This document shows, piece by piece, positions 1-42,492 of a stretch of DNA of 42,492 nt. Source of the DNA: a virus. Location of the stretch: positions 1-42,492 of IMG/VR virus record IMGVR_UViG_3300033145_000860; one strand, 5' to 3'. A program made the translations under genes and the position numbers. The stretch's first letter is position 1, and each line of letters opens with the position of its first letter. A model generated the notes under the pieces. The model saw only the letters and a program-made list of their open reading frames with translations, was not told the origin of the DNA and did not search any database.

Positions 1-114
1 TACGGACTGGAAGTCCTTGTCGTGGTCGGAGTCCGATCCGCTCGTGTCGATACCGTACATCATCTTGTACAGCTTGATCCGAGCGGCGCGCTGCGCCTTC
101 TTGACGAGGAACTG
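1..114. repeat. Terminal direct repeat (circular overlap), copy 1
   Basis: Bases 1-114 are identical to bases 42379-42492. Because the capsid gene reads through the junction without a break when the ends are joined, this is best read as the overlap of a circular assembly rather than as a biological terminal repeat. The non-redundant genome is 42,378 bp. Confidence 0.95.
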
Positions 115-465
115 AACCAGATCCACCGGAGCCGTGTCCGAACCGCCATCGTTCTGCAACTCCTCTTCCACGTCGTAGCTGACGGGAACCTGCACATACT
201 TCCAGTGGAAATACGGAGACTCCAGCAGCTCCTTGCGGCCCGACGTGAGGGGTTCGCTGGGGAAATACGCCTGCGCCAGGCTGTCCATCTCGGCCTTGTC
301 GACCGGCCGCGTGATGAACTTGCCGCCCTTGAAGCTGATGCGCCGACCCAAGAGCAGCCGGGCCAGCAGGGGCATCTTCATCAGGACCTGGGCTTTCACC
401 TGGTTCAGGAACAGCGAACGAGTGGTCGCCTGGATGTTGGCGTTGTTGCTTGCTTCAAAATCCAT
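1..465 (-). CDS. Major capsid protein, N-terminal part (continues at 42378)
   Basis: This is the first 155 codons of the capsid gene. The frame runs off base 1 and continues exactly at 42378-41815 once the ends are joined, giving a 342-residue protein. The ATG at 465 begins MDFEASNNAN. The N-terminal part has a helical segment rich in Leu, Lys and Met (about residues 20-50), then a beta-rich region with YFPSEPLTSGR and a VSYDVEEELQNDGG motif typical of HK97-fold phage capsid proteins. It follows a scaffold-like gene and precedes small decoration-like genes, the usual head-gene order. A strong hairpin lies just upstream (497-534). The capsid role rests on position, size and general sequence character, not on a motif unique to the family. 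Confidence 0.8.
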   Translation of the reverse strand, partial: MDFEASNNANIQATTRSLFLNQVKAQVLMKMPLLARLLLGRRISFKGGKFITRPVDKAEMDSLAQAYFPSEPLTSGRKELLESPYFHWKYVQVPVSYDVEEELQNDGGSDTAPVDLVQFLVKKAQRAARIKLYKMMYGIDTSGSDSDHDKDFQSV

Positions 466-2923: not shown

Positions 2924-5017
2924 TTACGTTGCCGTGCCTGGTTGGATCGGCCCCGTCTCGGGAGCCGGTTGATTGGGAGCGACGGCGGGGGACGCAGCGC
3001 CTGGTCGGGCTTCAGTACCTGGCCCTGGAGTTGGTTGCGTTGGTCCCCCTTCCGTCGCCTCTTGCTGGGCAAGAATCTCCTGGATCATCGCCCACGCCTG
3101 GTTCCTCGACAGGATCTCGTCGATGTTCTCCACCTCGTAGGCCTCCAGCAACTCACGCAGGTAGGCTTCGCCGAGAACCTGGTACAACTCCATCGCATCC
3201 TGCTTGCGACGAGCCAGGTCGAACGGCAAGCTCGTCGCCACGTTCATTTCGAGGTCGAACCGTGCGTCGATGTCCCCCTCCGTGAGCGTAGCCACCCGAG
3301 CGTGGAACCCTTCGCCGCTCGCGCCGATGATGCGGAGAAGATCGCCCGCCCGGGAGTTCCTGGCCGTGACTTCGTGGACGACCTCCATCAGGCGGATCGT
3401 GTAGTCCTCCAAGAGGATCGACTGCAAACCCGTGCGGAGTCGGGTCATCGTGTCCATCCGCAACGCTTCGGTGGCTGTGGTCGCCCCCGTCGTGTCGCGG
3501 CCCATCGCGATTTCCTGTATGCCCGTCGTGTCGCGAAGCTGCTGCGCCAACAGCGAGTACACCTCGACGACGCCGGTCCCCATCGGCGGCGGCGGCTCTC
3601 GGACGATCTTGCCCGACCCGCCCGTCGCACATTTCCAGATCGCCCCGGCGTGAGCCTTGATCTTCTCGGCCACGTTGCGATTGTCCGGGCAGTTCTGGAT
3701 CGCCCCCTGCTCGACCTTGATGATGGGATCGCCGAAGTATTTGACGTAGTTGCCGAGATGCGAGGCCGCGATGTTCAGCCAGTCCTGAATCGCTCGACCC
3801 ATCTCCACTCCGTTCAGGCCGTGCCAGGTGTGCGGCAGCATGTGATTGACGCCGATGATGTAGGGCCAGTTGCGATAGTCCCAGACCTGCTCTTCGTCCT
3901 TCGGGTTCAGGATCACGTCGGACCCCACCCGGATGGCGTACCGCCCTCGGGGATAGGTTGGCGCTTCGTGGCTTTCGGTCACCGTGGGCCAGTTCTCGTC
4001 ACCCAGCAGTTCACCCGTGGACACCAGCTTGAAGACCTCGACCCCGGCATCGTCCTGCTCCAGCCTGACGACGCCCATCTCCTTTAGCTCGGCCAGGGGG
4101 ATTTGCTTCTTCTCGGTGATCGTCTTCTCCTCGCGGTCCTTCCAGAAGATTTCGAGGATGTTGATCTTTCGCTTGTCCACCCCGCCCGACTCGGCCTTGT
4201 CCCCGCCCAACAGCGACGACCTGTCCACGGCGCCCAACAGCAGCGACGCCAGGCGCCCTTCCACCCGGGGCGTCTGAGCGACTCCTTTGCCTCGCTCCCC
4301 GCTGACCGTCGAACCTTCCAAAGCCGCCTTGCTCGATACCGCCGTGACCTCAAGCGCCAGGCCACCCAAGGGATCCACTTCTTCCTCAGACGATTCGGCC
4401 GCAAGCTCAATCTCCTCCTTGAACGCCGGCCACTTCTGAATCAGCCACGCCACGCTCACCCGACGGTGGCAGTAGCAGTATTCGGCCTTGTGGAGATCGC
4501 CATCCTCGGCTTCGGGGTCCATGCCGAAGTAGTCGGGGCGCAAGAGCGTGATCTGCGTCGCGCCCTTCCACCGCTTCTTCTCCTCGTCCCACTCGTGCTT
4601 CGGCTCCCAATAAACCTTCGTGACCCAGTGCCCGAACACTTTGCCGTCGAGGATCGCAGCCAGGCGGTGCGCCGGGATGCGCAACCCCTTCTCGAACTGC
4701 CACTGCAGGATGTCGCGCCAGACATCCGCTCCCGCCTGGTCCCCCTGCTCCCACGGCAAGGTGATGAGCTTGGGGAACTGCTGGGCCAACAGGGCCGACT
4801 CCTGCATAATGGCGGGGAAGATCTGGTTCGTGACGATGCGATCCCACCCCTCGCGAGCATCCTGGCCGACAAGCTGGTTGTTGAAGACGTAGTTCAGGCC
4901 GTCCTCGTACACCGGCTTCCAGAGCTTGTGGTGCGCCGTAGCGCGCCGGACCATCTCGTCGATCAGGTCGTTCAGGTTCTTCAGCCGCTCTTGCATCTTC
5001 TCGTTCTTCTTCGCCAT
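2924..5017 (-). CDS. Portal protein (P22-like)
   Basis: 697 residues, the size range of P22-type portals. The N-terminus is helical (MAKKNEKMQERLKNLNDLID), followed by a conserved-looking core: DYFGMDPEAEDGD around residue 170, a VNHMLPHTWHGLNG segment near residue 405, and the long stem-type helical stretch NIAASHLGNYVKYFGDPIIK. Later helices (TTGIQEIAMGRDTTGATTATEA, then the TRLRTG helix) resemble the portal clip/wing region. The C-terminal 50 residues are Pro/Gln/Gly-rich. It would form the dodecameric ring at the head vertex through which the terminase pumps DNA. The gene follows the large terminase after a string of small genes, the expected order. Confidence 0.85.
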   Translation of the reverse strand: MAKKNEKMQERLKNLNDLIDEMVRRATAHHKLWKPVYEDGLNYVFNNQLVGQDAREGWDRIVTNQIFPAIMQESALLAQQFPKLITLPWEQGDQAGADVWRDILQWQFEKGLRIPAHRLAAILDGKVFGHWVTKVYWEPKHEWDEEKKRWKGATQITLLRPDYFGMDPEAEDGDLHKAEYCYCHRRVSVAWLIQKWPAFKEEIELAAESSEEEVDPLGGLALEVTAVSSKAALEGSTVSGERGKGVAQTPRVEGRLASLLLGAVDRSSLLGGDKAESGGVDKRKINILEIFWKDREEKTITEKKQIPLAELKEMGVVRLEQDDAGVEVFKLVSTGELLGDENWPTVTESHEAPTYPRGRYAIRVGSDVILNPKDEEQVWDYRNWPYIIGVNHMLPHTWHGLNGVEMGRAIQDWLNIAASHLGNYVKYFGDPIIKVEQGAIQNCPDNRNVAEKIKAHAGAIWKCATGGSGKIVREPPPPMGTGVVEVYSLLAQQLRDTTGIQEIAMGRDTTGATTATEALRMDTMTRLRTGLQSILLEDYTIRLMEVVHEVTARNSRAGDLLRIIGASGEGFHARVATLTEGDIDARFDLEMNVATSLPFDLARRKQDAMELYQVLGEAYLRELLEAYEVENIDEILSRNQAWAMIQEILAQQEATEGGPTQPTPGPGTEARPGAASPAVAPNQPAPETGPIQPGTAT

Positions 5018-6206: not shown

Positions 6207-6228
6207 AGTCAACTCTCCTTTTCGTCAT
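6193..6228 (-). CDS. Possible 11-residue leader peptide
   Basis: An ATG at 6228 overlaps the TGA of the large terminase (ATGA) and encodes MTKRRVDYGGE before a TAA inside the start of the next gene. Its codons contain that gene's AAGGAG. It may be only a coupling device or chance. Confidence 0.2.
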   Translation of the reverse strand: MTKRRVDYGGE

Positions 6229-7982
6229 CGCGTTCTCTCCACGCCGCCGGCGTCCTCGAACTCCTCGATGCCGTGATCGTACCCGCCGGCGTAGCGGTAG
6301 TCCGTGGCCGCGACATCTGTTCGTCGGGTGAGGCTCGTATGCCCCATCGTCCGCGGGCAACGAAGGTGAAGCTCCCAACAGATCATGGCTGCGAAGAGGA
6401 TGTCATCGTGCGCTCCCGATCGATGCCGGCGCTTGCCCATCTTGTCGATGTAGAACCGCTCCTCCTGCTCGACGAGCTGCAGGATCGGCACGACCAAGCT
6501 GAACTCCCAGCCGTTCACCGGGTCCGCACGACACGCCGCGAGGTAGTTGTCGATCAGCATGTCCCGGTTATGCGACATCGTCTTCCACCCGAGCTTGCCC
6601 GCTTCCTTCAAGGCGATGTTCTCGTCGTTCCCCAGGCGGCGGTACGTCCGGGCGTAGTTCGCCCTCTTGAACTCAAGCAGTGCCGCCAGGCCGGAGGAGT
6701 TGGCCTCGGGCGTGGCCCATGCATTATTGTAATACATCGCCGCCTTCAGCATCTCAAGGCCGAAGAGGTCAGGGTCGACCTGGTTGTGGCACAAGGCGAC
6801 GTATTCAAGGCGGTGGCGGTCCAGCACCAGGGCGGCATTGAAGTCCGCCTCGCTGTCCTCGTCGCTCGGGTCACTGAGTTGCCCCTCCATCGTATCCCCG
6901 CCCACCGTGTAGTCGTGACGCTCCTCGACGGTCTTCCAGATGTCCCAGTACATCCCGTCGAAGTCGTTGTTGATCTCGATGGTCACCCCGCTCGGCTGCA
7001 AGGGATCCAGCTTGAACCTCGCACGCTGCGGGTCCGCCCGGCTCGTGGCCGTCCGTCTGTGATGTGTCAGGATCTTCGCGGAGATCGCTCCACGGCCCGA
7101 CATCTGGAAGGCTTCGCCGGCGTTGCTCGGGTACTCCTGCTTGAACGTGCTGACATCACCGCCGCACTTGTCCGCAATCGTTCGTCGTCTCCACCAGAGC
7201 TGCTCGGCGTTCGCCCCCAGTTCCACCAACTCCTCCTCCTCCTCGTCCAGGGGGTCGAGCGTCATGCCCTCGGGCAGGGGCGTTGAATACTGCGGGTAGT
7301 CCAGCCAGGAGAAGAACAGGGGGAGGAACCCGCTCAGGTCGTTGGGGTTGTCGTGCCTGGCCTGCACTGCATCCTGCCACATGTCGTAGAACTCGCCGCC
7401 CACGCCGTTGGCCGTCGTCTCCAGGAAGACCATCGAGTCGGGCGAGTCGGGAATGCACTGCATCACGGAGAGCAGGGACTGCTTGGCCGTCTTCCACCAG
7501 GCCACCTCGGAGCAGTGCAGGTAGTCAATCGTCTTGGACCGGCCGAGGCTCACCTTGCCGGCTGTCTGCACCTGCATCAGGCTGCGGTGAGGGGCGGACC
7601 ACATGATCTCCTTCTTGCTCGAATAGTCCGTGGGCTTTCGTCGGCCCGGGGGCTGCTCGTCATAGTAGAGCTTCGTCATGCGGAAGAGCGTTTCGGAACT
7701 GTCCTCGTCGTGGGCGCAGACGAAGCCGCGCTTGTACGGGATCGTGTCGCAGTGCTTGAAGATGATGGCCTCGACGGCCGTGCTGAATCCCCCCTGGCGG
7801 AACTTCAGGATGAGGATTCGTATGGGCAAGCCAAGGCCCTGCTGCATGCCGACGGCGGTGATGAGTCGACACTGCTGCCAGTTGGGGACCAGATCGATCA
7901 TCCCCTCCGTCTTCGTGAGAATCTTGAACCCGTCGAAAGGAGCGGGATCGGCCAGCAGATCGTTACTTTGTGCCGTTGTCAC
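6225..7982 (-). CDS. terL: Terminase large subunit
   Basis: 585 residues; ATPase plus nuclease that cuts and pumps DNA into the prohead. An adenine-binding/Walker-A-like segment KFRQGGFST is at 60-68, the Walker B IDYLHCSE at 152-159 with its catalytic glutamate, and the coupling motif ETTANG at 188-193. The RNase H-like nuclease shows acidic residues at YTVGGDTMEG (about 370) and HDD at 525-527. GTG at 7982 is the first possible start, because TGA lies nine bases upstream in frame; it overlaps the small-subunit gene by 20 bases. The stop overlaps the next ATG. The C-terminal tail carries a short Tyr/Gly-rich segment that may dock the portal. Confidence 0.95.
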   Translation of the reverse strand: MTTAQSNDLLADPAPFDGFKILTKTEGMIDLVPNWQQCRLITAVGMQQGLGLPIRILILKFRQGGFSTAVEAIIFKHCDTIPYKRGFVCAHDEDSSETLFRMTKLYYDEQPPGRRKPTDYSSKKEIMWSAPHRSLMQVQTAGKVSLGRSKTIDYLHCSEVAWWKTAKQSLLSVMQCIPDSPDSMVFLETTANGVGGEFYDMWQDAVQARHDNPNDLSGFLPLFFSWLDYPQYSTPLPEGMTLDPLDEEEEELVELGANAEQLWWRRRTIADKCGGDVSTFKQEYPSNAGEAFQMSGRGAISAKILTHHRRTATSRADPQRARFKLDPLQPSGVTIEINNDFDGMYWDIWKTVEERHDYTVGGDTMEGQLSDPSDEDSEADFNAALVLDRHRLEYVALCHNQVDPDLFGLEMLKAAMYYNNAWATPEANSSGLAALLEFKRANYARTYRRLGNDENIALKEAGKLGWKTMSHNRDMLIDNYLAACRADPVNGWEFSLVVPILQLVEQEERFYIDKMGKRRHRSGAHDDILFAAMICWELHLRCPRTMGHTSLTRRTDVAATDYRYAGGYDHGIEEFEDAGGVERTR

Positions 7983-18888: not shown

Positions 18889-19212
18889 TTAGGCGTTGTT
18901 GGGGAATAACGGCTTCTCTGTGTTGGCTATGCGGTTCCTTGCTGTCGCGCAGGATTCTTCGTCGTTGTCGATGCCGATGAAGCGAAAGCCCTCTCGCTTC
19001 GCCGCCTTGCCGGTTGAGCCCGATCCGCAGAACGGCTCGCCGGGTACGCCGTGGTCCCACTTCTTCCCCATGAAGCCCAAGCCATACGGCGGATCGGTGA
19101 CGATAGAATCGACGCCGGCTTCGTCCATCGCGGCCATTACGACGAGCGAATCTCCGCAGACGACACAGCCGTCCGATTCCCCGCTCAGGACTTTTTCGAT
19201 CTCGGGGTTCAT
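18889..19212 (-). CDS. Miniature DNA methyltransferase, middle region missing
   Basis: 107 residues. It has motif IV DPPY at 40-43 and the SAM-binding motif FCGSGSTG at 61-68, then GFRFIGIDNDEESCATARNRI. In beta-class N6-adenine/N4-cytosine methyltransferases these motifs are separated by 100-200 residues including the target-recognition domain. Here only about 17 residues (GLGFMGKKWDHGVPGEP) lie between, so the middle has been deleted with the frame kept. The first 14 residues (MNPEIEKVLSGESDG) belong to a 5' module shared with the genes at 22595 and 23895. Probably no longer a sequence-specific methylase; it may be inactive, a subunit or a SAM-binding protein. Start overlaps the preceding TAA. 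Confidence 0.8.
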   Translation of the reverse strand: MNPEIEKVLSGESDGCVVCGDSLVVMAAMDEAGVDSIVTDPPYGLGFMGKKWDHGVPGEPFCGSGSTGKAAKREGFRFIGIDNDEESCATARNRIANTEKPLFPNNA

Positions 19213-22626: not shown

Positions 22627-23895
22627 TCACGAGGCCTTCCCCCCTCGGTCTTGAGGCTGGCCAGTCCCCCTCGTCAGCGCAATGGCCGCTCTCGCAATTT
22701 TGGCACATTCTCCATACGCCGCCTTCTTGGCGTCGATCGCGGGGGCGACTTCACGGATCCACTTCTTCCCGGGAGGCCCTTGGTAGGCACATGACCCCAA
22801 CGCGGAAATCGCAAAAGACTCCAGAGAAGAAATCTCCTCCAGGGCTCGCAATAGTTCCGTCGCTGAGGCGATCAGGAGAGCATTGGCTTCCAATTGGTCG
22901 AAGGCGGCCCGGCTCAACTCGCCCTTGTCTGTGTACATTGCCCCGTCGTTCGGTTCCACAGCGGCAACGCCGGCGACAACCTTCCCGTTCGCGGCCACGA
23001 TCTGGCTCTGGCCATACCCGCGGCCCATACCGGTGCTGCCTTGTGTCCCGTCGGTGGCGTCGGGATCATCCTCAAAGAGAACATTGTCGTCGGACTTGCG
23101 GCTCGGCGCATCTCTGTCCAGCCACCATTCCCAATAGGATTGCGCCGTGGGCCATCGTTCCCGATCTGTCCAAGTCGCCTTGACCGCCTTCTCCCACAGC
23201 TTGCAGATGGCGGGCCACATCTCCATTTGCCTTTCCACGTCGCGGGTCATCGGACAAAGGATGCAGCCCAACCTCTTGAAGCCCTGATCGTAAAGCTCGC
23301 AGTAGGGCAATTCGCGTTCGTGGATGTACTCCCACACGTCCCTGGTCGTCCAATCGATGATGGGATGGAGATACCGCTTGGCCTTGTCGCGGTAGCAGGC
23401 TTCGGTCATTTGTCGTTTACTGCGACGATTCGACTCGCCCCAGCGGATGCCCGTGACTACGATCCGCCCCGCGCCACCACGCTCTTTCAGAACTTCGCAG
23501 CAGTAACGGCAGTTCCGTCGCGGCGGCAGACCCTTCTTCGCAATGAGTTGCCACATATTCATCTCGGGCAACGAGAGTGCGGTGTCTGGGTGATGCTTCC
23601 TCCCGAAGCGGATCAACTGCCAGGGGTCTACCGTCGTTACGTTGTGGTGGTAGGTGCATTTCACGCCAGAGCGGTGGGCGAGGTCGTAGATCACGGTGGA
23701 GTCCTTGCCAAAGCTGTCGGCGACATAAAACCCATCCGGATGCATAGACAACGCCTGTTCCTCGAACGTCCGCAGGCGCTCAATCGCAACATCGTCCATC
23801 GCTCGATTGTCCAGGTATCTACGCATGCGGCCAATGCCGCGCACAATCGCGCCGGTCGATTCGCCTTCCAGGACTTTCTCAATCTCGGGGTTCAC
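22627..23895 (-). CDS. PAPS reductase-family protein with methylase-like leader
   Basis: 422 residues. The PP-loop SFGKDS is at 61-66, followed by YHHNVTTVDPWQLIRF. Cysteines in RNCRYCC (129-133) and GCILCP (210-215) could hold an Fe-S cluster, as in DndC-like members. The family uses adenylated substrates; phage members are linked to nucleic-acid sulfur chemistry or tRNA/DNA modification, but the reaction here is unknown. Residues 1-20 (MNPEIEKVLEGESTGAIVRG) are the opening of a methyltransferase, not of this family, so the 5' end was captured from a neighbour. The C-terminal 150 residues are an extra Ala-rich helical region. Start overlaps the lysin stop (ATGA). Confidence 0.8.
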   Translation of the reverse strand: MNPEIEKVLEGESTGAIVRGIGRMRRYLDNRAMDDVAIERLRTFEEQALSMHPDGFYVADSFGKDSTVIYDLAHRSGVKCTYHHNVTTVDPWQLIRFGRKHHPDTALSLPEMNMWQLIAKKGLPPRRNCRYCCEVLKERGGAGRIVVTGIRWGESNRRSKRQMTEACYRDKAKRYLHPIIDWTTRDVWEYIHERELPYCELYDQGFKRLGCILCPMTRDVERQMEMWPAICKLWEKAVKATWTDRERWPTAQSYWEWWLDRDAPSRKSDDNVLFEDDPDATDGTQGSTGMGRGYGQSQIVAANGKVVAGVAAVEPNDGAMYTDKGELSRAAFDQLEANALLIASATELLRALEEISSLESFAISALGSCAYQGPPGKKWIREVAPAIDAKKAAYGECAKIARAAIALTRGTGQPQDRGGKAS

Positions 23896-24281: not shown

Positions 24282-24311
24282 GATCTAATCTCCTTTTTCC
24301 AGTGATAGCCT

Positions 24312-24351
24312 ACTCGGGGGAGCTGGTTTTTGAGGCCAGCTCCCCCCGAGT
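24312..24351 (-). terminator. Strong hairpin between tRNA and lysin genes
   Basis: Bases 24312-24326 pair with 24336-24351, a 15-bp GC-rich stem with one bulged C and a 9-base loop. It lies 22 bases beyond the tRNA 3' end and 30 bases before the lysin start on the minus strand. It may terminate the tRNA transcript or mark its 3' processing boundary. Confidence 0.7.
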
Positions 24352-24373
24352 GCATCAGGCTCATAACCCGAAC

Positions 24374-24446
24374 GCGCGGGGGCGGGACTCGAACCCGCGA
24401 CCTGTTGCTTATGAGGCAACTGAGCTGCCAACTGCTCTACCCCGCT
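24374..24446 (-). tRNA. tRNA-Met (CAT anticodon)
   Basis: Cloverleaf: acceptor 5' strand AGCGGGG pairs with CCCCGCG over six G-C pairs, leaving a 1-72 A/G mismatch; D stem GAGC/GCTC with the loop AGTTGGCA; anticodon stem GTTGC/GCAAC with loop CTCATAA; T stem GCGGG/CCCGC with loop TTCGAGT; discriminator C and no encoded CCA. The anticodon stem lacks the three G-C pairs of initiator tRNA, so it is an elongator Met (or an Ile tRNA read after lysidine modification). The phage may carry it to adjust codon supply. Confidence 0.93.
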
Positions 24447-24710
24447 GCGTGGCCGAGTCCGCCGCGCGACGGACCCGGCCTTCTGCTCTCGCGCCTTGCC
24501 GGTGGGATTAGTCCGGCCGTCGCGAAGAAGAAGGTGGGCAGGAAGCGATGCTTCGTGACCTTCTGCCACGTTCGCGGCCGTATCCACATCGCCGACGAGG
24601 AACCAGGCCGCGTGATAGACCGCCCGCCTCGCCCTGTCCTGCCCTTGCTGGCGTGGCAAGAGCATCTCCACGTTTTGGCTTGCCTAGCCCGGACTCGCCC
24701 ATCGTGCTTG

Positions 24711-26540: not shown

Positions 26541-29500
26541 TCAGAACGACGCACTGCCCTTTGCCTTCCGCTTCGGGGGGCGGAAGCCCTGGTTCCTGAG
26601 GATGCTCGTCGCGTCCATGTACTGCTGCGAAGTCAACCGGCCATCCTTCAGCAGGTCCTTCATGTTGATCAGCATCTCGGACCCGCCCGTTTTGGACTCT
26701 CTCTCGGAATCGATCTGGTTGAAGATGATCTTGAGCTTCTTCGCAGCCAGGCCGGCGGCGTCTTTGCGCCCGCGCTTGATCTGGCGGAGGAAGTCCGCCT
26801 TGTAGTCGGCCTTCAGTTTGGCGAGGGCTGCTTTGCGGACCTTGGCGATCTCCTCGAAAGTATACTGCGTCTTGCCCATCGCATAAATGCGCTTCATGGC
26901 TTCCGCATGGGCCTTGTGGTCCCACTTCTGCCCGCCCGAGATCGTCTTGTCCCTGGCCTCGAAGAGATCGAGGTAGGAATCCTTGATCGTGTCCAGAGTA
27001 ACCGGCGCGAGTCCGCCTATGTGGATCACCGCCTCGGCGATGTCCTTCATGCCGGTCAGGGGCACCCCGCCGAGGACGGAGAGGGCGCGGAGGAGTTCGC
27101 TGGACGCCCGCCGCCATTCCTTCGTCGCATCTTCGCCTTCCCGCCTTTTCTTGGCTGCCCTGGTCGCGGATCGCACAAAGCCCTGCGCGTCGTTCAGGGC
27201 GCCGGTGATCGGGTCACTGCCCACCGTCTCCCAACTGGCGCGCAAACCCTTCCAGGCCCGAATCACGTTGTCCACCGTCTCGCCAACAAGGTCACCCACC
27301 CCGTATCCCAGGAAGGATGAGAACGCCCGCTTCAACGCCCCGAGCGCGACCGAACCCAAGAACGTGGTCCCCTCTTCGTCCTCTTTGCCCCGCGCTCGTC
27401 TCCAGGCTCGGAACATCATCTCCAGCAGCACGAAGTTGGTCAGGAGGATCGCGCTGTTCTTGACGAACTTCGCCTTGGCCTTCGGGCCGTGATCGCTGTC
27501 CCGGTAGTCGATGATGTCCATGACCGCCTGATTGAAGATCTTTTCCCGCACCGCCCCGAACAGCGTGAGAAGTCGCGCTCCGATCTTGCCGATGTGCGCC
27601 TCCATCCCCAGAAAGGATCGACCCGCCAAGATATAGGCCGGCTGGGTTCGGAGCACCAGTTCCTCGAACCGATCCGCAACGCGCCTGAAGAAGTCATCGC
27701 CCTTCAACTCCGACTGCTTGCGGCGAACTTCATGCTTGGCCACCTGCCAGATTTGCCCCAGGGTCTTACGATCTGCCCAGGAGATATTCGCCATCATCCA
27801 TTCGGCGCGTCTCGGGGTCAGGGATGTGTGCAGGTGCGCGCCCGACGCGGCAGGCCCGACCAGCCCGGTCCTCGACCCGGAGAATCGCGCCCACGTCTGG
27901 GGCGACCAGCGCATAATCTCGTCGTAATCGACACGCCCGGAAACCAGTCCGGCAAGAACGTCCCGCGCGTCCACTTCGCGAAGGATGAACGGGAACGACA
28001 GGAACTGATACCCGGAGATGTGCGGCCGAATGCCCAGAGTGCCTTTGTACATATTTCCGATGAAGGACGTGATGATGTTCGCGATGGTCCCCTTCGGCCC
28101 CCCGGAGGGGTCTTCCAGTGTCTGCGTCGCCTGCTTCATCATCCGAATGTAGTCGCCGGCGTAGTGCTTGGAGACTTCCCCCGCAAAGTCTGGATTGCTC
28201 AAGAGCATGTTGGCCTGGCGGATCGGGCCGATCCACGCCGCGAACCTCGCCACGAAGTTGACGTGCGAGATGTAGCGCGAGAAGATGTCCATCCCCTCGA
28301 TCGGGAGAAGCCCGCCCGTGCGCTTCTTCAGTCTCCGGTTGCCTTCCAGCGTGTGTTCCTGCCATTGCTGGAGGGTCGCCGCACCGCCTCCGACCCGGAA
28401 CTGCCCCGCGCGACTCCGATCGTAGTAGTCCTCTTCCGTCAGCAACTCGTAACCCTTCCAGGTGACTGACGCCGCATTGCCCTTCTCCTTCAGTCGTCCG
28501 TTCATCTCCCCCTTCACATACGCAGCAATGGCGCGTTCGGCGGGAGTCGCCGCCTGGATGATCGCCGCCATGTCCCGCTCGGTCAGGTACAGGTTGCCCT
28601 CGAACCGGCCTTTGTTGACGAGATGCAGCGGAGCGCCCGCAAGCAAGGAGTCCCGGTTCTTCGGGGTCACAAACTGATTCACCAGGTCCATCAACTCCGC
28701 GGGCGTCAAGACCAGCGTCTTGACCCTCTCCCCTTCGTGGAACCCTTCGCCCGTTGCAAAGACCGCCCGCCGTGCCGAGGGAAGTTTGATCGTCCGCATC
28801 TTCACCGTGCCGGTTCGCTCGACGCCCTGAAGAATCTGCTTCCCGTATGTCCACGCCTTGACCATCTTGCGGAGCAGGCCTTTCTCGATTCGGGCGTACT
28901 CCCTGCTGGCGCTGCGGAGATACCCCGCCACGGTCTTTCCGGTGGAATCGAGGATGACTTCCTGCATTCCCTCGAACTGCTCACGCTCGGTGCTGATCTG
29001 TTCGTTGGTCGCCGTCTGCATCAGTTCCTTGGCGAGGATGCGATTGGCGATGCTGTCGCGGTGAGTCACCCACGCCGACATCGTGTCCAGGTTCTCACTC
29101 ATACGAACGAGACGACCGATCCACGTCAGCCTGCGTTCTTCCCTCACGCCGGTCGCAAAGTCCGCCTGCCCCGCCACCTCTCTACCCTTGCGCACGTCGC
29201 CGGCGGACTCCATCCCCGCTTCGGTTGCATCGCGATACTGCCCGCCCAGGAGATAGTGATTCTTCAACTCGTTCCACCGCGCCAGGTGCAGGATCGCGTC
29301 CGTGATGATGTTGATCTCGTCCGTACTCATGGTCGCCAGGGATCGTCGACCGCCCTCCGCCAGAATATCCTCCGCTTGCTTCACGATAGGATCAGGCATC
29401 GCCCCGACCTCTTGGCCCTCGGTGGGTTCCAGAGAGACGAGTCCCGCCGTCTTGCGGATGGCGCGCATCCGGTCAAGCAGTTTGTCCGTATGCCCGACTT

Positions 29501-32500
29501 CCGCATACGTCTCTCGCAGCGCATCGAATGCCTCCTGCACTTCTGGTCGGAGCAGACCCCGGTCGCCGAGCGTCTTCATCGCCTTGTCGTATCTCTTCCT
29601 GGCTGCCCGGTGCGCTTCTTTCCGGTGGAGATGCTCCAGGATTGCGTTCACCCTGGCGATGAACGGCTTGACGCCCGCCCTGGGTCCGGTGACGCGATTG
29701 AGCGCGGCCAGGGCCTTGCCGCGCTGGTCGGCGGGGAGAACGTTCAGGAGTTCCCGCATGTCCTTCTGCGTGGCTTGCATGTCGAGCCTGCCCAGGCGCA
29801 TCACCTTCCGCAACTTGGCGCGAGTCTCCACGTCGCGTTCGCCCTTGATGATCGCCTTCGCGTACTCGGCGGGATCCTGGAATACGCCCGGCAAGGGAAC
29901 CGGCCCTTGCTCCAGGGTCTCCGCGTCGAACCCGGCCTGCTTGAGTATCTGCTGCTCCTGATTGGTGCGGAACTCCGCCAGGTCCTTGATCGGCCAGTCC
30001 GCGCCCTCGACATCACGGTACGCCCGAATCGCAGCCAGAATCTCTACGTCGCCCACGGCCTCGGCGAAGCTCTGTGCCTCGGCGATAGCCTGGGATTCCG
30101 CCTCTGCTGGGGTGCGCCGCAAGGTCTTCAAGCGACTCCACCATTCGTTGTAGCCGCCCGGAAGGTCGCCGATGAAGTCCTCGGCCATTCCGCCCGGCAC
30201 GTTCTGTCGCAACCCGGCGCGGAAGATCGCCTGGCGCTGCCCGAAGTTCATTTCCCTCAGCAGGTCTTTGACCTCGCCGGGGAACTTGCCGCCGAACTCC
30301 GCGGTGAACCCCTCCTGCACATACGGCTGATCCTCCAACTGGATAGCGGGCGCGCCTGCCCGCTCCTGAATCGCCTCGATGGATTCACCCGCGGCCTTTT
30401 CGTACCAGGCAAGGATTTCCTTCTTGAGCGACCTGGCCTGGGTCTTCGCCACCTGGAGAGCCTTCTTGTCGGCCAGGGTGGTCTTCGCGCCGTGCATTCG
30501 GTCGAAGATGGCGCGTACGTCGCGGGGGAGTTTCGTCAGCATCTTCGAGTAGATGCGCCGGAACATCGCCGCGATGCGGATGAACAGCGCCTTGAGCCTG
30601 GGCGTCGGCGCCTTGCCGCGCCGGTAGTATTCCTCGAACAGCGTTGCGGCGGCTTCCTTCTGCTTGCGTGTCCAGTTGAGGTAGGGCTTGCCCGCCTTCG
30701 CGCCCACGGCGTTGGCAAGGGCGGCGTGTTCGTCGGTCGTCATCATGTTCGGGACGGAGAGAACCAGATGTCCGAACTCATGCACGACGGTCGTGGGGTC
30801 GGCCTTGCCCTTCTTCAACTCGATCAGGGCGTTGCCGAGGCGGTCGAAGGTGATCTTTCCGCGAGCGCCCTGGAACAGCAACCCGCCCTTGGTCGCCTGC
30901 TCGAACGCAGATTCCATCTCCGGCATGGGATTGGTGGGGTTCTTGAACAGCCTTTCGGCCTTGCCCGTCATGCGTTTCTTGATTTCGAGGTAGGCGGACT
31001 TCGCATCCCGGGGACCGCCCTTGCGAGAGACGAGCGATGCCACAGCCTTGACCAGCGCGGGCTTGACCGGAACGGCCGGGGGAGCGGCGGGAGCCTCGGC
31101 TTCCAGACCGAGAGCCTTCTGCTTGCCCGCGATCGGCCCGGCGACTTGCTGGCCAAAGAGACCAGTCTGTTCCAACGCCTCTCCCGTCACAGGCCCGGAC
31201 TGCACGCGCTTCCAGAACTCCTCGGGGGCGACTTCGTTCTTGCGGGCGAACTCCTCCACGAGCTTGTCGAACGCCGTGAACAAGTCCTCGGTGTCCTGCT
31301 TGCCGATGGCATCGACGGTCTGCTGGTAGAGGGATTCGCGGCCGGACCTGGGCTTCTCCGCCTTCTTCGGCTTTGCGGGTTCGGGCGTGGGGAGTCCGCC
31401 TTCCGTCTCCCGAGACGCCTTCTCAAAAAAGCTACTGGCTTTCTCATTGAGCCATTTGCTCTTCTCAATCTCGGAATCCGTCAACTTGTCGAAGCGGACT
31501 TCCACGCGGTCCATGGAACCGCCAGTATCCACTTCTCGCTCGACGTTCACATACCGGTTGCCCTTCCCGTTATCGACCAACGTGAGCCTGTACGCAGTGC
31601 GCCCCTTGTTCCGGCCAAGGACGATCTCGGACGTGACAGTGCTGTGTCCTCGCGGCAGTTTGGGATCCTGGTTCTGGATGAAGTGAGGAATGTCCGTCGC
31701 GCCCTCACCCACCTTCGCCATCGGATTCGGCTTTGTGAAATCCGGCTTTGCGGGTTCCTTGGCTGCGGGGGGCTTCAAGTCCGGGTAGTCGGCGAGGACG
31801 GACTTCGGGACGGGCTTGCCTTCCTTCACAGCCTGTTCGACAGCCCTCTGGTGTTCATTGGCGAGATTTAGTTTGCGGGTAGCGCGCGCAAGTCCTTCTG
31901 CCGCACCTTCGCTGTCTGGCATCGCGTCAACTTTCCTCTGCCACTCATTCACTTGCCGCCTTAGCGCGAGGTCGGTGACTTTGCCGGAGTAGATATAGCC
32001 CTCTCCGACGTATCCCTCTCGCGTCATCTCCCATGCGTACTTCCCCTCTACAGGGGCTCCCTCTGGCGCAGGAGCAGCCTCTGTGGGCTTTGGTGGAGCG
32101 ACTGGCGGCTCTGTGACGGCTTCCGGCTCCACTTTAGGGGCAACAGGCGGCTTCTTGGCCTCGGGGCTTACAGGAGGCCTGACGGGCACGAGGGGCGGTC
32201 CCTGCACTGCACCCTGCACGCCCGGCTTCCCGCCGACCGTCCTGCTGACCTGCGCGAGTGGAGGTACGACGACGCCTCCCTGGCTCTGAAGGATGGAAGG
32301 TGCGCTCGGCGGCGCGGTGACGAGCGGCGGACCTTGTGATGCCAAGGGCTTCGCGCCAGCGGGCGCCCCGGCAAGCACGAGCGGCCCGCCTCTGCTTTCG
32401 GCGGCGGTCGGCGGAGCGGCTTGCTGTTGGGGCCGTGGCGATGGCGGTGCTTTGTAGGTGGGGCTGTCCCCTGTCAGGAACTCATAGGCACTCACCGCCT

Positions 32501-33737
32501 CCCGATATGCCACGTCGGACTTTCCTCCCGAAACGTCCGGGTGGGTCGTTTTCACGTTGGCCCGAAACGCAGCCTTGATCTCTGCCTGTGTCGGGTTCTT
32601 CCCGAGTCCGAGCGTCTTCAGAGATTCTGCTCTCATGCTCAGAAGCACAGACTTTTGCTGTGAGGCGGTCTTGGCGCTGTTCAGAGAGTTCCGCCAGCCC
32701 GCCCGGAGGTTCGGCAACCGCATAACCAAGGCAACCCCGGCGGATACCGCAGCGTCCTCCCACGTCCCCCCGGCGGCAAGAGTCGTGCCTCCAAAGGCCG
32801 TCATCGCAGCAAACGTCTTGAGGGAATGTCCCATCACGCCGGTACCGGGAAGGGAACCTATCGCATGAAGCGTTGCGTACAGGGCCGCGCCTTCCCCAGA
32901 GGGTTTCCCCATCCTGCTTCCGGCAATCTCCATCGCCGCTGCGCCCTCGACCATCGGAGGAAGGCCTAGGGGCTTCGCGACTTTGCGAAGTAGGGCCATT
33001 TCGCCGATAAATTGAACCACGCCCGCCGAAACATCGGCGACCTTTTCCGCAATGCCGACGGGAGGATCGCGGCGGACACTCGCCACGGCAGAGATTGCTC
33101 TTTCCCTTGCCTTGTCATATCCGGGATAGGAGCGAATCTGAGACAGACGCAACCCCTGCCCCCCATCGTCGTCGGGGCGATCCAGTTCGTTGAAGTAGAC
33201 CGACATCACATAGGCCGGATCATCCGTAGACAACAGGGGACGCTCGTCTTTGGCGGACATCCCGGCAAGTCTTTCTCGCCAGAATGCCTCCGTCATGCGG
33301 CTTCCTTCCACGAATCCATGCACAGGAATCTTGACACGATTGATTATGTTCGTCGCAAGAGTCCCTGCGAACCGACGCACAGGCCGGAACAGAGAAGGAA
33401 AAAGAGGCTGCTGCGTTGTCGGAGTACCCACTTCCCACGACGGCGCATTGGATACGGAAACACCTGCGGAGAGAAGGTCGGGGACGGGGCCTTGAGGTGC
33501 TACCGGGCGCAGTTCGGGCTTCAACCGGTACGCCCTCTCGTACAAGTCCTCCATCGGACCAGGCTGAGGAAGGGGAGAGGGTGTCGGAGTCGGCGCGGGA
33601 GCCTGGGCCACCTTCGAAACAGGCGCAGTCCTGTCGCGGATCTCACCTGCGGGCGTGGCCGGAGGAGGCGCAGCCGCCCGAAGCCGAGAAGCTCGGGCCA
33701 TCACGTCATCCAGCGGACTGCGATACTTGGCCATCAT
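26541..33737 (-). CDS. Giant polyvalent-type internal virion protein with J-domain and metallopeptidase motif
   Basis: 2,398 residues, one sixth of the genome. Residues 1-110 are Pro/Ala-rich and disordered. Hydrophobic segments follow at about 235-260 and 300-342. A DnaJ J-domain lies at about 368-424 (SLKTLGLGKNPTQAEIKAAF ... HPD at 399-401 ... AYEFLTGD). Pro-rich linker from 425 to about 600. HEFGH at 986-990 is a zinc metallopeptidase motif as in polyvalent proteins. The long helical C-terminal half has hydrophobic stretches near 2090 and 2130. Such giant proteins are packaged in the head and enter the host with the DNA. The J-domain could recruit host DnaK to assist ejection or folding; this is inference. 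ATG overlaps the preceding TGA. Confidence 0.85.
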   Translation of the reverse strand: MMAKYRSPLDDVMARASRLRAAAPPPATPAGEIRDRTAPVSKVAQAPAPTPTPSPLPQPGPMEDLYERAYRLKPELRPVAPQGPVPDLLSAGVSVSNAPSWEVGTPTTQQPLFPSLFRPVRRFAGTLATNIINRVKIPVHGFVEGSRMTEAFWRERLAGMSAKDERPLLSTDDPAYVMSVYFNELDRPDDDGGQGLRLSQIRSYPGYDKARERAISAVASVRRDPPVGIAEKVADVSAGVVQFIGEMALLRKVAKPLGLPPMVEGAAAMEIAGSRMGKPSGEGAALYATLHAIGSLPGTGVMGHSLKTFAAMTAFGGTTLAAGGTWEDAAVSAGVALVMRLPNLRAGWRNSLNSAKTASQQKSVLLSMRAESLKTLGLGKNPTQAEIKAAFRANVKTTHPDVSGGKSDVAYREAVSAYEFLTGDSPTYKAPPSPRPQQQAAPPTAAESRGGPLVLAGAPAGAKPLASQGPPLVTAPPSAPSILQSQGGVVVPPLAQVSRTVGGKPGVQGAVQGPPLVPVRPPVSPEAKKPPVAPKVEPEAVTEPPVAPPKPTEAAPAPEGAPVEGKYAWEMTREGYVGEGYIYSGKVTDLALRRQVNEWQRKVDAMPDSEGAAEGLARATRKLNLANEHQRAVEQAVKEGKPVPKSVLADYPDLKPPAAKEPAKPDFTKPNPMAKVGEGATDIPHFIQNQDPKLPRGHSTVTSEIVLGRNKGRTAYRLTLVDNGKGNRYVNVEREVDTGGSMDRVEVRFDKLTDSEIEKSKWLNEKASSFFEKASRETEGGLPTPEPAKPKKAEKPRSGRESLYQQTVDAIGKQDTEDLFTAFDKLVEEFARKNEVAPEEFWKRVQSGPVTGEALEQTGLFGQQVAGPIAGKQKALGLEAEAPAAPPAVPVKPALVKAVASLVSRKGGPRDAKSAYLEIKKRMTGKAERLFKNPTNPMPEMESAFEQATKGGLLFQGARGKITFDRLGNALIELKKGKADPTTVVHEFGHLVLSVPNMMTTDEHAALANAVGAKAGKPYLNWTRKQKEAAATLFEEYYRRGKAPTPRLKALFIRIAAMFRRIYSKMLTKLPRDVRAIFDRMHGAKTTLADKKALQVAKTQARSLKKEILAWYEKAAGESIEAIQERAGAPAIQLEDQPYVQEGFTAEFGGKFPGEVKDLLREMNFGQRQAIFRAGLRQNVPGGMAEDFIGDLPGGYNEWWSRLKTLRRTPAEAESQAIAEAQSFAEAVGDVEILAAIRAYRDVEGADWPIKDLAEFRTNQEQQILKQAGFDAETLEQGPVPLPGVFQDPAEYAKAIIKGERDVETRAKLRKVMRLGRLDMQATQKDMRELLNVLPADQRGKALAALNRVTGPRAGVKPFIARVNAILEHLHRKEAHRAARKRYDKAMKTLGDRGLLRPEVQEAFDALRETYAEVGHTDKLLDRMRAIRKTAGLVSLEPTEGQEVGAMPDPIVKQAEDILAEGGRRSLATMSTDEINIITDAILHLARWNELKNHYLLGGQYRDATEAGMESAGDVRKGREVAGQADFATGVREERRLTWIGRLVRMSENLDTMSAWVTHRDSIANRILAKELMQTATNEQISTEREQFEGMQEVILDSTGKTVAGYLRSASREYARIEKGLLRKMVKAWTYGKQILQGVERTGTVKMRTIKLPSARRAVFATGEGFHEGERVKTLVLTPAELMDLVNQFVTPKNRDSLLAGAPLHLVNKGRFEGNLYLTERDMAAIIQAATPAERAIAAYVKGEMNGRLKEKGNAASVTWKGYELLTEEDYYDRSRAGQFRVGGGAATLQQWQEHTLEGNRRLKKRTGGLLPIEGMDIFSRYISHVNFVARFAAWIGPIRQANMLLSNPDFAGEVSKHYAGDYIRMMKQATQTLEDPSGGPKGTIANIITSFIGNMYKGTLGIRPHISGYQFLSFPFILREVDARDVLAGLVSGRVDYDEIMRWSPQTWARFSGSRTGLVGPAASGAHLHTSLTPRRAEWMMANISWADRKTLGQIWQVAKHEVRRKQSELKGDDFFRRVADRFEELVLRTQPAYILAGRSFLGMEAHIGKIGARLLTLFGAVREKIFNQAVMDIIDYRDSDHGPKAKAKFVKNSAILLTNFVLLEMMFRAWRRARGKEDEEGTTFLGSVALGALKRAFSSFLGYGVGDLVGETVDNVIRAWKGLRASWETVGSDPITGALNDAQGFVRSATRAAKKRREGEDATKEWRRASSELLRALSVLGGVPLTGMKDIAEAVIHIGGLAPVTLDTIKDSYLDLFEARDKTISGGQKWDHKAHAEAMKRIYAMGKTQYTFEEIAKVRKAALAKLKADYKADFLRQIKRGRKDAAGLAAKKLKIIFNQIDSERESKTGGSEMLINMKDLLKDGRLTSQQYMDATSILRNQGFRPPKRKAKGSASF

Positions 33738-35812
33738 TCGGCTCCGACGTAGAGTTGACGAGCGACCTCATCCTTCTCGGCATCCGTCAGCGACTCGTAG
33801 ACTTCGGCCAGTTCCGGCTCATTGATCGATGTGCCGGCACGAACCGCCTCAATCAACTTGTTCATCCGGGTCTGCTGAAGGGGGACTCCCGCCGCATGGC
33901 GCACGAAGTTCTTCGACTCGTCCGACAAGCCTTCAAGGTTCTTCTCGAACTCGGCGATCTCTTCCGGCGTCCGCTCGATCTTCGGCTGGACTTCCGCTTC
34001 CAGGGGAGGACCGGCCGCTCTCGCTCCCTCAAGCGACGGCCCACTGGGGAACGGTTCCGCCAAAGGTTCAGGAAGCGGTTCTTCTCCGAGATCCACCGGC
34101 GCGGCAGCAGCGGCTTCCTCTTGGGCCGCCACGGCCATTGCCGCCTTCTGGTCGTCCTCGGCCTGGCGATGAGCCGCGAACTCGGCGAATTCGCGGACCT
34201 TTTGCCTTGCCTCGGGCAAGTCCCTGGCACCGCCATCCTCAACCATCTGCTGCGCATCGCCTTCGACGAACTCGCCCTGTCCGTTGATTCCCTCATCGGG
34301 CAAGGGCATGTCGTTGATGGTCACGGGCTTGGTCGCCTTCTCGTCGACGATCTTCTTCGCAGCGGCCGGGTTGTGCTTCTTCCACTGCTCCCAGTAGTTG
34401 GCAATGCGGATTTTCCCACCCTCGGAGTCCTGTATCCTTACTTCCTGGCCGTAGGCTTCGAGGGCCGCTGACCAGATGGTCTTGATGGCAAGGTCGATCT
34501 CGTCGGGGTCCATCCCCGACACGTCGTAGATGGCCTTGTACTTCGCAGTGAAGCGTCGGTAGTTCTTCTTCAGCTCGCTGTAGGTCTTCGGAGCCACCAC
34601 CTCCACCTCCAGCCAATCGACTGTTCCGTCTTCCCTCCTTACCTCCTCCTTGTTCGTACCCCCGGCGATCAGGTACTCCGCGCCCTCCATCATCTTCTCT
34701 CGTTGTGCGGAGGTCAGCGTCGTGCCAAGTTCGTCGGGGTACATAGACCTCCCGGCCTCATACTGTATCAGGCTCGTCTTGAGTGCTCCCGTCACCTGGT
34801 CCCTCTCGATCACTCCGGCCTTGATGTCGTCGACAACCCCCTGCATGACAGCCTCTCCCGTCGGGACATCCCTATCGCTCTGCGATTGGGCGATTTGATC
34901 GCCGCGGTCCTTGTTGTACGCCAGGATCCGGGCCTTCTTCGCCGCCGCCTGCTCTTTGGCCAAATCCTCGGCCGCTGCCGCCTGCTCCTTCGCGGTCTTG
35001 GCCGCGTCGACCTTCGCCTTCGCCGCAACGAGAGCTGCCTGCCGACCAGCTTCGGCCTTTGCCCGTCCCTGCCATGCTCGATAGAGATCCGCCGCCCGAT
35101 CGCCCGGTCCTTTGAGACGTCGGGTGAAGTCCACGTCGGGATAGTCCTGCTCAATGCCCGCGAGAATCTGTGCCGAAGAAGCATCCGTCGCCACGGCCAA
35201 TCGCCGGAGAATCTGAGTTTGCTCGCTCGGCGTCGGATCTCGCTTCGCCGCCTCGGCTACAGCACCCCCAACGTCCGCTTGCGGGGGTACACCAGCCGCC
35301 CCCGGGGGGGCAGGAGCACCGGGGACGCCCGTAGTGACTGCTGCGGGGGGCGGAACCGTCGAAGGGCTTACAGGAGCTTGTACGGGCTGTACGGCCGCAG
35401 CAGGAGTTGCCGCTCCGAGACGGGGACCAAGCGGTTTTACTCCCGCAAGGGACGGGCCTGCCGGCAGGCCGGTGCTTGCCGGCTTTGGGCGAGGGGCGGT
35501 TTCCAAGGGAGGGCCAACCGGCTTGACTCCCTTGAGCGACGGACCCGCCGGCAGACCAGCCCCTCTCCGCCCGGTCTTCATCGTCTTGACCGCACCATCG
35601 GCGAGGACCGCACGCAATTCGCCCTTCCGCTGTGTCGGCTGCTTCCTTCCAACGGCAGCGCCGGGCGTGGCCTGCGCCGCCTGCCTGACCGCCTTCGGCG
35701 CACGGGTGATCGTCTTGCCGCCGGCCGTCGTGACCGAAGCGCCCGGCTGGGGAGTCTCGTAGAGCTTCCTGCCCTTCTTCTTTTTCTTCTTGAGCGGATC
35801 GTATGTCGCCAT
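33734..35812 (-). CDS. Disordered basic virion-associated protein
   Basis: 692 residues from ATG 35812 (MATYDPLKKKKKKGRKLYET), AGGAG upstream. Residues 1-200 are Pro/Ala/Gly-rich with repeats of the kind GPSL.GVKP.GPPL; about 210-330 is coiled-coil (AKAKVDAAKTAKEQAAAAED). The C-terminal part is helical with acidic linkers, and repeats the PSL.GA..AGPPLE element near residue 590. The stop is coupled to the giant virion gene. Likely an internal or ejection protein working with the giant protein; inference from position and lack of fibre features. Confidence 0.55.
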   Translation of the reverse strand: MATYDPLKKKKKKGRKLYETPQPGASVTTAGGKTITRAPKAVRQAAQATPGAAVGRKQPTQRKGELRAVLADGAVKTMKTGRRGAGLPAGPSLKGVKPVGPPLETAPRPKPASTGLPAGPSLAGVKPLGPRLGAATPAAAVQPVQAPVSPSTVPPPAAVTTGVPGAPAPPGAAGVPPQADVGGAVAEAAKRDPTPSEQTQILRRLAVATDASSAQILAGIEQDYPDVDFTRRLKGPGDRAADLYRAWQGRAKAEAGRQAALVAAKAKVDAAKTAKEQAAAAEDLAKEQAAAKKARILAYNKDRGDQIAQSQSDRDVPTGEAVMQGVVDDIKAGVIERDQVTGALKTSLIQYEAGRSMYPDELGTTLTSAQREKMMEGAEYLIAGGTNKEEVRREDGTVDWLEVEVVAPKTYSELKKNYRRFTAKYKAIYDVSGMDPDEIDLAIKTIWSAALEAYGQEVRIQDSEGGKIRIANYWEQWKKHNPAAAKKIVDEKATKPVTINDMPLPDEGINGQGEFVEGDAQQMVEDGGARDLPEARQKVREFAEFAAHRQAEDDQKAAMAVAAQEEAAAAAPVDLGEEPLPEPLAEPFPSGPSLEGARAAGPPLEAEVQPKIERTPEEIAEFEKNLEGLSDESKNFVRHAAGVPLQQTRMNKLIEAVRAGTSINEPELAEVYESLTDAEKDEVARQLYVGAE

Positions 35813-35822
35813 CGCGCGGCTC

Positions 35823-36869
35823 CTACTTGTGCGTAAAGTCCCAACGGAAGATGATCGCTTGATCGGTAACCCGGTAACCCTCGGCATCGTTGTCGTGCAG
35901 CGCAGGTTCCGCGACCCAGACAGGGTAGGTCAGGTCGCCGAGCCGGGTTGAACTCGTCACGGTCGCCGCCCCGTTGGCATCGTTGTCCGTCAGCCACAAG
36001 GACCACTTATTTTCAAGGACATCATCACCGTTGGCGTTCCATGTATTGTGGTCGATCCCGGCATCCGTCTTGACGGCGTAGGCGTAGAACTCGGCATCGC
36101 AATCGACCCCGGTGTACACGCCGTAGGCTTGCAGGTACGCCATCCTCGCCCACAGCGCGGTTTCGTAGTAATCCCGCCAATACTCCGGCGGAGGGACGGA
36201 ATACTCGTCGTGGAGTGCCCTACTGATCGACCTTGGAGCATCATCTTGTGTCGACCCACTACCGTCATACTCCGCTTCCGAGAGAGCCTTGGCGACCGCA
36301 AAGACATCATCGTGTCCATCAGCCGTGGCCAGCTTGTAGTTCGTTCCGCTGACATACTTCCACAGGGGGGGTGTAATGTCCGTGGAGATGTTCAGCGTCC
36401 AAAGCAACTTCTTGAACGCATCCTGCAAGTCCTGGAAAATCCACGGCCCCCGGATGTCACCCGCCTGGATGGGACCGTAGGAGTAGGCGGCGTCGGAATA
36501 GTCCGTCCAGTCGGCGGGCCAGGTCGTTGCGCGTCGAAACCCCGAGGTCAGCCCCGTCGCCAGCTTGAAGTTCGCCCACGTCCACAGGTCGATGGTGGAC
36601 TTGTTGTCGTAGTAGCCGTTCGCTCGAAGCGTCCCGTTTGTCTCGTGGCTCTGGACCCAGGTTGTCGCGGCATCGTTCTGAATCCAGGTCTGCATCTTCT
36701 TGAAGTGGAACCTCTCCACGGTCACCGGGGAGGTGAGTTGAATGTCCTCTCCTGCCGCAGGCGCATCACCTGACCAACTGCCGCCACGCTCAACGAAGGA
36801 AACGTAGTATTCGTTGGCGAGTGCCGCGCTCTGGAGGTCCATGTCGTCAGTGATCGCGGTGAAGGCCAT
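35823..36869 (-). CDS. Tail or virion structural protein (348 aa)
   Basis: From ATG 36869 (MAFTAITDDMDLQSAALANE), overlapping the stop TAA of the preceding gene. Asp/Tyr/Trp/Thr-rich, beta-dominated with many aromatic residues (ALWARMAYLQAYGVYTGVDC). Such proteins are common as tail-fibre or head-fibre subunits in environmental phages. No catalytic motif seen. Confidence 0.55.
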   Translation of the reverse strand: MAFTAITDDMDLQSAALANEYYVSFVERGGSWSGDAPAAGEDIQLTSPVTVERFHFKKMQTWIQNDAATTWVQSHETNGTLRANGYYDNKSTIDLWTWANFKLATGLTSGFRRATTWPADWTDYSDAAYSYGPIQAGDIRGPWIFQDLQDAFKKLLWTLNISTDITPPLWKYVSGTNYKLATADGHDDVFAVAKALSEAEYDGSGSTQDDAPRSISRALHDEYSVPPPEYWRDYYETALWARMAYLQAYGVYTGVDCDAEFYAYAVKTDAGIDHNTWNANGDDVLENKWSLWLTDNDANGAATVTSSTRLGDLTYPVWVAEPALHDNDAEGYRVTDQAIIFRWDFTHK

Positions 36870-41814: not shown

Positions 41815-42492
41815 TTACGTGCAGTTCAGCAGCATGATCGAACTTGAGGGCTTCCAGTTGATGAGGTTGCCGGCCAGCATGATCCGGGCCAGCCACTCGT
41901 CATACCCGCCGGCCTTGTCGCCCTGCCAGGTGAACCCGGTGAAGTTGAAAGCACGGCGCGGGTGCAGCCGCAGCTCCCAGTCGGGGATGTTGTAGATGAA
42001 GAAGTATTTCTGCGAGTTCGTCAGGATCGAGTTCCTGAGATACGGATCCGCAACCACTTCGACACCGTCCAGCATCAACGTCCTGAACCCGAACTTCGCC
42101 AGGAGCGAGCCGTCACGGGAATAGATGTGACGGGCCTCGACCTGCGATTGCAGCTCCAGGAAGATGCTGTCTCCGACAACGCAGAGCAAGTCCTGCGGAC
42201 CATCGGCGTAGAGCGACACCGCCGCCACCGATCGGCGGAAGGTGTTGATGCTCGGCGTGTACGCCGTCGACTGATCCGCGAAACTGTCCGCGATACTCGC
42301 TCCCTGCCACCATTTGTTCGTCACCGTTGTCGCTCGGGAGAGGTGACCGTAGGTCGCATCGTGTGTGAGGGCGTCCAGTACGGACTGGAAGTCCTTGTCG
42401 TGGTCGGAGTCCGATCCGCTCGTGTCGATACCGTACATCATCTTGTACAGCTTGATCCGAGCGGCGCGCTGCGCCTTCTTGACGAGGAACTG
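41815..42492 (-). CDS. Major capsid protein, C-terminal part (continues at 465)
   Basis: Codons from here join those at 465-1 to give the 342-residue capsid protein; bases 42379-42492 duplicate 1-114. The part unique to this end begins LDALTHDATYGHLSRATTVT. It continues with NTFRRSVAAVSLYADGPQDL, SRDGSLLAKFGFRTLMLDGV and ends IMLAGNLINWKPSSSIMLLN. The strand-loop-strand ILTNSQKYFFIYNIPDWELR near the end is typical of the P-domain/spine elements of HK97-like capsid proteins. See the other half for context. Confidence 0.8.
   Translation of the reverse strand, partial: QFLVKKAQRAARIKLYKMMYGIDTSGSDSDHDKDFQSVLDALTHDATYGHLSRATTVTNKWWQGASIADSFADQSTAYTPSINTFRRSVAAVSLYADGPQDLLCVVGDSIFLELQSQVEARHIYSRDGSLLAKFGFRTLMLDGVEVVADPYLRNSILTNSQKYFFIYNIPDWELRLHPRRAFNFTGFTWQGDKAGGYDEWLARIMLAGNLINWKPSSSIMLLNCT
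42379..42492. repeat. Terminal direct repeat (circular overlap), copy 2
   Basis: Exact copy of bases 1-114. It lies inside the major capsid gene, so a headful-packaged, circularly permuted genome or a circular intracellular form would both explain it; a physical terminal repeat placed inside the capsid gene would be unusual. Confidence 0.95.

Follow-up and report, generated by a model that had tools for sequence, protein, structure and literature searches.

The window analysed in this study is the whole 42,492-nucleotide stretch of the IMG/VR record IMGVR_UViG_3300033145_000860 (positions 1 to 42,492). A direct repeat of 114 bp is present at both ends (1–114 and 42379–42492), and the contig is complete and circular, with a length of about 42,378 bp. 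The phage is of the short-tailed type. The genes on the minus strand follow the order terminase, portal, major capsid protein (MCP), several genes of the structural cassette, a 717-aa gene, and the gene for a giant protein of 2398 residues (Table 1). The MCP gene spans the circular join and encodes 342 aa when the repeat is counted once. The open reading frame of the giant had originally been placed at 26541–33737 with no strand stated; these boundaries proved to be exact, and the gene lies on the minus strand.

Table 1. Positions in the window of the structural genes and of the protein features of the giant
Feature	Position	Strand	Remarks
Major capsid protein, N-terminal part	1..465	(-)	same gene as 41815..42492
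Portal protein	2924..5017	(-)	
Large terminase subunit	6225..7982	(-)	PHROG 24361
Giant protein, 2398 aa, ATG start	26541..33737	(-)	final large gene of the structural cassette; no Cys
C-terminal hydrophobic stretches, residues ~2040-2250	26988..27620	(-)	
C-terminal conserved helical region, residues 1682-2069	27531..28694	(-)	PHROG 28077; also in G004
Zincin-like metallopeptidase domain, residues 950-1090	30468..30890	(-)	
HEFGH active-site motif, residues 986-990	30768..30782	(-)	invariant Glu 1035 at 30633-30635
Pro-rich linker and small module (WEMTR..., AVxEGKPVPxxVLxxY), residues 532-651	31785..32144	(-)	also in G004 giant, weakly in G001
J-domain, helices I-III, no helix IV, residues 368-424	32466..32636	(-)	
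HPD motif, residues 399-401	32535..32543	(-)	
N-terminal hydrophobic/amphipathic helical segment, residues 224-333	32739..33068	(-)	36% identity to same position in G004 giant
717-aa gene	33734..35887	(-)	immediately upstream of giant; ATGA overlap; zero Cys; position of T7 gp15 / AF structural lysozyme
Major capsid protein, C-terminal part	41815..42492	(-)	gene continues across circular join

Architecture and relatives of the giant protein

Cysteine is missing from both the giant and the 717-aa protein; many other proteins of this phage contain 1–4%, and at 1% the chance of finding none in 2398 residues is 3e-11. The hydrophobicity profile of the giant is bimodal, with the strongest windows centred at residues 248, 324, 2048, 2140, and 2233. 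Since these windows are modest (19-aa maximum of 1.38), membrane insertion is uncertain. GC3 ranges from 0.63 to 0.75 in the N-terminal third of the gene (about 31337–33737) and from 0.81 to 0.89 in the remainder, hinting at a different recent history of the N-terminal third.

The HEFGH motif occurs once in the giant, against a chance expectation of 0.03 for its composition. The surrounding domain matches PHROG 9880 (E=7e-16), and His986, Glu987, His990, Glu1028, Glu1035, and Tyr1037 are invariant in 81 aligned sequences, giving the pattern of HExxH and a downstream Glu found in zincins. The metallopeptidase motif noted earlier at residues 986–990 is upheld by the family match and the invariant residues. 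The predicted model of the domain comprises two strands, the HExxH helix, and a Glu-bearing helix. A Foldseek search of this model against the PDB gave no convincing match for the presumed zincin fold, and a profile search against the PDB yielded weak SprT/Spartan matches alone (E 0.13). A metallopeptidase is ordinary for this kind of protein. Polyvalent proteins, which occur in phages and in conjugative elements, carry a zincin-like metallopeptidase with HExxH and a Glu in the next helix (PMC5512222); they resemble the giant in being multidomain, in being encoded in the late region, and in carrying variable cargo. The giant likewise combines its metallopeptidase with further domains and is encoded with late virion genes.

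No close homolog of the whole protein was found in IMG/VR, and named phages matched it at the level of the metallopeptidase alone. Single-protein scans with the portal and the terminase recovered one distant relative. An MCP alignment scan recovered a relative with 63% identity, on a 16-kb contig that stops before the giant gene, together with the relatives G001 and G003/G004. Scans with an alignment of the C-terminal region found G004 alone in viral contigs and no match in genomes, while a combined query of the N-terminal segment and the J-domain returned J-level matches only. These searches recovered no homolog with the J-domain region, in which the HPD could be compared. The MCP of G004 is 32% identical to that of the phage under study, and its 3033-aa giant matches residues 224–333 (36%), 532–651 (31%), and 1682–2069 (22%). 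The two segments shared on either side flank a variable stretch in which the J-domain is placed, indicating a modular mosaic. The G004 giant (locus L180, 712–9813, minus strand) has a methyltransferase-like NPPY motif and one Cys. In the same slot, G001 encodes a 4105-aa giant (locus L012, 101–12418, minus strand) with SNF2-type helicase domains and methyltransferase similarity, which by its domain content is a classic polyvalent architecture.

A wider sample was obtained from 80 IMG/VR loci found through the metallopeptidase domain (L013–L092). Their giant late proteins, of 1.2–4 thousand residues, are free of Cys in 71 cases and contain it in nine. This observation suggests the absence of Cys as a simple marker, readable from the sequence, of ejected giants. 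In the 66 full-length relatives of this set, the first and last quarters of the chain together hold 311 of the 330 strongest hydrophobic windows, suggesting a common topology like that of T7 gp16, with the cargo between. Among named phages, AF_016 of Pseudomonas phage AF (2213 aa) and ORF24 of Xanthomonas phage CP2, both of PHROG 9880, share approximately 35% identity with the giant over the metallopeptidase domain. They resemble it in gene position, size, lack of Cys, and hydrophobic layout, but they have no J-domain and their remaining sequence is not alignable. Phage AF also has the same gene order, in which a 'structural lysozyme' of 700 aa precedes the 2213-aa protein.

Two further systems bear on the function of the giant. 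In T7, gp15 (747 aa) is followed by gp16, in which two membrane regions flank a cytoplasmic part (PMC8954989). The giant similarly comes after a gene of ~720–750 aa and closes the structural cassette, although family and profile comparisons gave no support for a gp15 identity of the 717-aa protein. It has hydrophobic windows at both ends, which recall the two membrane regions of gp16 but are modest. Furthermore, it shows no detectable sequence similarity to gp16, no transglycosylase domain was found in it, and it is nearly twice as long. Because there is no match to the gp16 family, we describe the giant as possibly working like gp16, not as a member of that family. The N4-type virion RNA polymerases are free of Cys, a property linked to passage through the tail and periplasm (PMC3715699; PMC3915230). 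The N4 enzyme shares with the giant its size, the lack of Cys, and a metallopeptidase domain, but it contains an RNA polymerase domain, of which family searches detected none in the giant.

The position in the late cassette, the lack of Cys, the relatives, and the bimodal hydrophobicity are the grounds on which we read the giant as an ejection protein. The original prediction of an ejected-type protein agrees with all four; delivery into the host is what we infer from them. The same features argue against a large cytoplasmic late protein unrelated to ejection, which we regard as highly improbable even for an uncultured phage known here from its genes alone.

The J-domain and its rarity in giant proteins

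The HPD motif is also present once in the giant, against a chance expectation of 0.09 for its composition. In a whole-protein search, Pfam PF00226 matched residues 374–422 with E=1.2e-5 and 25.7 bits, and NCBIfam DnaJ models matched the same stretch. The comparison with PF00226 therefore located the J-domain at the predicted place, but with a score slightly below the curated cut-off of 27.8. An independent profile, built from five standalone phage J-domains with the sequence of the giant excluded, scored 43.6 bits over residues 368–422, whereas the best of 2000 shuffles of the giant reached 7.7 bits. The AlphaFold2 model of residues 205–440 has a mean pLDDT of 73, rising to 96–97 in the blocks of the J core. 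Helix I, helix II, the HPD loop, and helix III are correctly placed in this model, with HPD situated between predicted helices 384–398 and 408–422. J-domains lead the Foldseek matches in the PDB, with probabilities of 0.98–1.00 and E values of only 0.2–1, because the J-domain makes up a fraction of the query; many of the PDB J-domains superimpose with an rmsd of 1.3–2.5 Å over 50–58 columns. Helix IV is absent, as is a normal helix IV in a few standalone viral J-domains, while HPD, the basic helix II, and the core of the J-domain are complete. Judged from profile and model together, the J-domain is genuine, and the early assignment of HPD to residues 399–401 stands.

In class A and B DnaJ proteins, the J-domain is N-terminal and a G/F region comes next; class A also has a Zn finger. 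Membership in either class was rejected: the J-domain of the giant is internal, the linker after it is rich in Pro and Ala, and the protein has no Cys.

The fusion of a J-domain to such a protein seems to be rare. It is absent from all 80 viral giants, from 13 genome-derived loci, and from the giants of G001 and G004. Among the 179 ORFs of at least 800 aa in the compared loci (fragments and duplicates included), the studied giant alone has one. Two scans of viral contigs with J-domain queries, each covering its best 80 loci and largely overlapping, placed every confident J-domain in an ORF of at most 362 aa and nearly always at the N-terminus; rare fused J-domains may be missed, since the scans keep the best 80 loci. 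Consistent with this size range, Rki of RB43 and other phage DnaJ-like proteins have a J-domain with HPD like that of the giant but are small and standalone. J-domain families in PHROG have lengths of 156 to 565 positions, and a search of a viral structure library gave mostly small J-proteins and a few larger proteins of eukaryotic viruses. A J-domain search in 24 whole records of relatives found none, a result of little weight as it had no positive control. The literature, mainly open-access, yielded no paper reporting that a polyvalent or ejected phage protein contains a J-domain, and the 2017 survey of polyvalent proteins makes no mention of DnaJ, J-domain, or Hsp70 (PMC5512222), in line with the earlier description of the combination as little described. 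The 'partial DnaJ' in phage DNA polymerases of the HMO-2011 type is no precedent because that term refers to the central CxxCxGxG domain and not to a J-domain (PMC6918029). In having a J-domain, the giant thus differs from the surveyed polyvalent proteins, and by these comparisons the J-domain adds new cargo to a familiar type of protein, as yet in a single genome.

Taken together, we put the probability that the giant is an ejected polyvalent protein and that its J-domain is genuine at about 0.8. The occurrence of the fusion in one genome only, the missing helix IV, and the lower GC3 of the N-terminal third, consistent with a different history, would also fit a J-domain that recombination brought in and that is neutral or has lost the ability to work with a DnaK. 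Such a passenger seems very unlikely to us: its HPD, basic helix II, and core have been kept, it scores well against the independent profile, and the few standalone viral J-domains without a normal helix IV show the same reduction.

Possible roles of the J-domain

J-domains normally switch on the Hsp70 chaperone. The earlier idea of an injected co-chaperone that captures host DnaK is plausible and in part supported by the J-domain and the signs of ejection, while the remodelling of replication complexes and the proteolysis of host or self suggested with it are hypothetical. For the step at which a giant ejection protein crosses the envelope and refolds in the host cytoplasm, we tentatively propose, at somewhat less than even odds, that the J-domain draws host DnaK to the cytoplasmic face of the entry channel for import or refolding of the chain. 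The giant, encoded in the gp16 position, would be ejected into the host. By analogy with gp16, both of its hydrophobic regions would attach to the inner membrane, leaving the long middle part in the cytoplasm. The J-domain would then lie at the cytoplasmic mouth of the channel, since no other folded unit separates it from the N-terminal hydrophobic region. There it could recruit and trigger DnaK, which might help to draw in and refold the remaining chain after a largely unfolded passage. The metallopeptidase may subsequently cleave the chain into working pieces, following the proposal of Iyer et al. that this domain separates polyvalent proteins into their functional units (PMC5512222).

What speaks most strongly against an essential role in import is the lack of a J-domain in all sampled relatives. 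Because close to 100 related giants fulfil the same task without one, it cannot be a general requirement. The J-domain is nonetheless inside the giant here and in a separate small protein in the other sampled phages, which suggests that this phage may recruit the chaperone at entry. A more specific version, which we think unlikely, treats the J-domain as an entry-coupled docking site for Hsp70, where DnaK would ratchet or refold the incoming protein and possibly a DNA–protein complex. Such a site may be the phage counterpart of Sec63 or of the Tim14/Pam18 import motor of mitochondria.

The main rival to a role in import is a diversion of DnaK like that by Rki. Here, the ejected J-domain would capture host DnaK to alter host physiology, for example by stabilising sigma32 or by altering a DnaK/DnaJ-dependent defence or replication step. 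It would then be one more cargo effector of a polyvalent protein. The standalone Rki of RB43 provides a direct precedent, as it binds DnaK, stabilises sigma32, and aids phage growth while not being a generic co-chaperone (PMC3486835). The defence protein bNACHT25 requires host DnaJ (PMC12169576), and relatives carry other cargo in the same slot, namely the SNF2 helicase and methyltransferase similarity of G001 and the methyltransferase-like NPPY of G004. However, the few copies ejected per cell would presumably titrate an abundant chaperone poorly, and the placement of the J-domain right behind a hydrophobic segment suggests a local role. Although it is the strongest alternative, we rate this diversion as somewhat unlikely.

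Very large proteins are prone to aggregation, and the J-domain might act only before ejection, recruiting DnaK late in infection to maintain the solubility of the giant or to help its loading into the prohead. A role of phage DnaJ proteins in bringing host Hsp70 to folding and assembly has been proposed (PMC7824862). Such a function is quite improbable here, as other members of the family are equally large and assemble with no J-domain.

The HPD of a J-domain within such a protein provides a specific, mutable handle on the entry and refolding step, with which the question of whether host Hsp70 helps phage entry would become directly testable. The cargo list of polyvalent proteins also gains a putative chaperone-recruiting domain.

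Several observations concern the remainder of the window. A link to defence systems was discarded, as PADLOC returned no match. A tRNA-Met (CAT) at 24374–24446 on the minus strand lies within a predicted 128-aa ORF (24285–24671), which may be no gene because the tRNA sits inside it. Also on the minus strand, a gene of the phosphoadenosine phosphosulfate reductase family is located at 22627–23895, and two separate genes (21598–22401 and 18889–19593) each match only the C-terminal part of an N6/N4 DNA methylase. A DUF5131 family gene at 11705–12493 on the same strand (Pfam E=1e-27) encodes 11 Cys in 262 aa.
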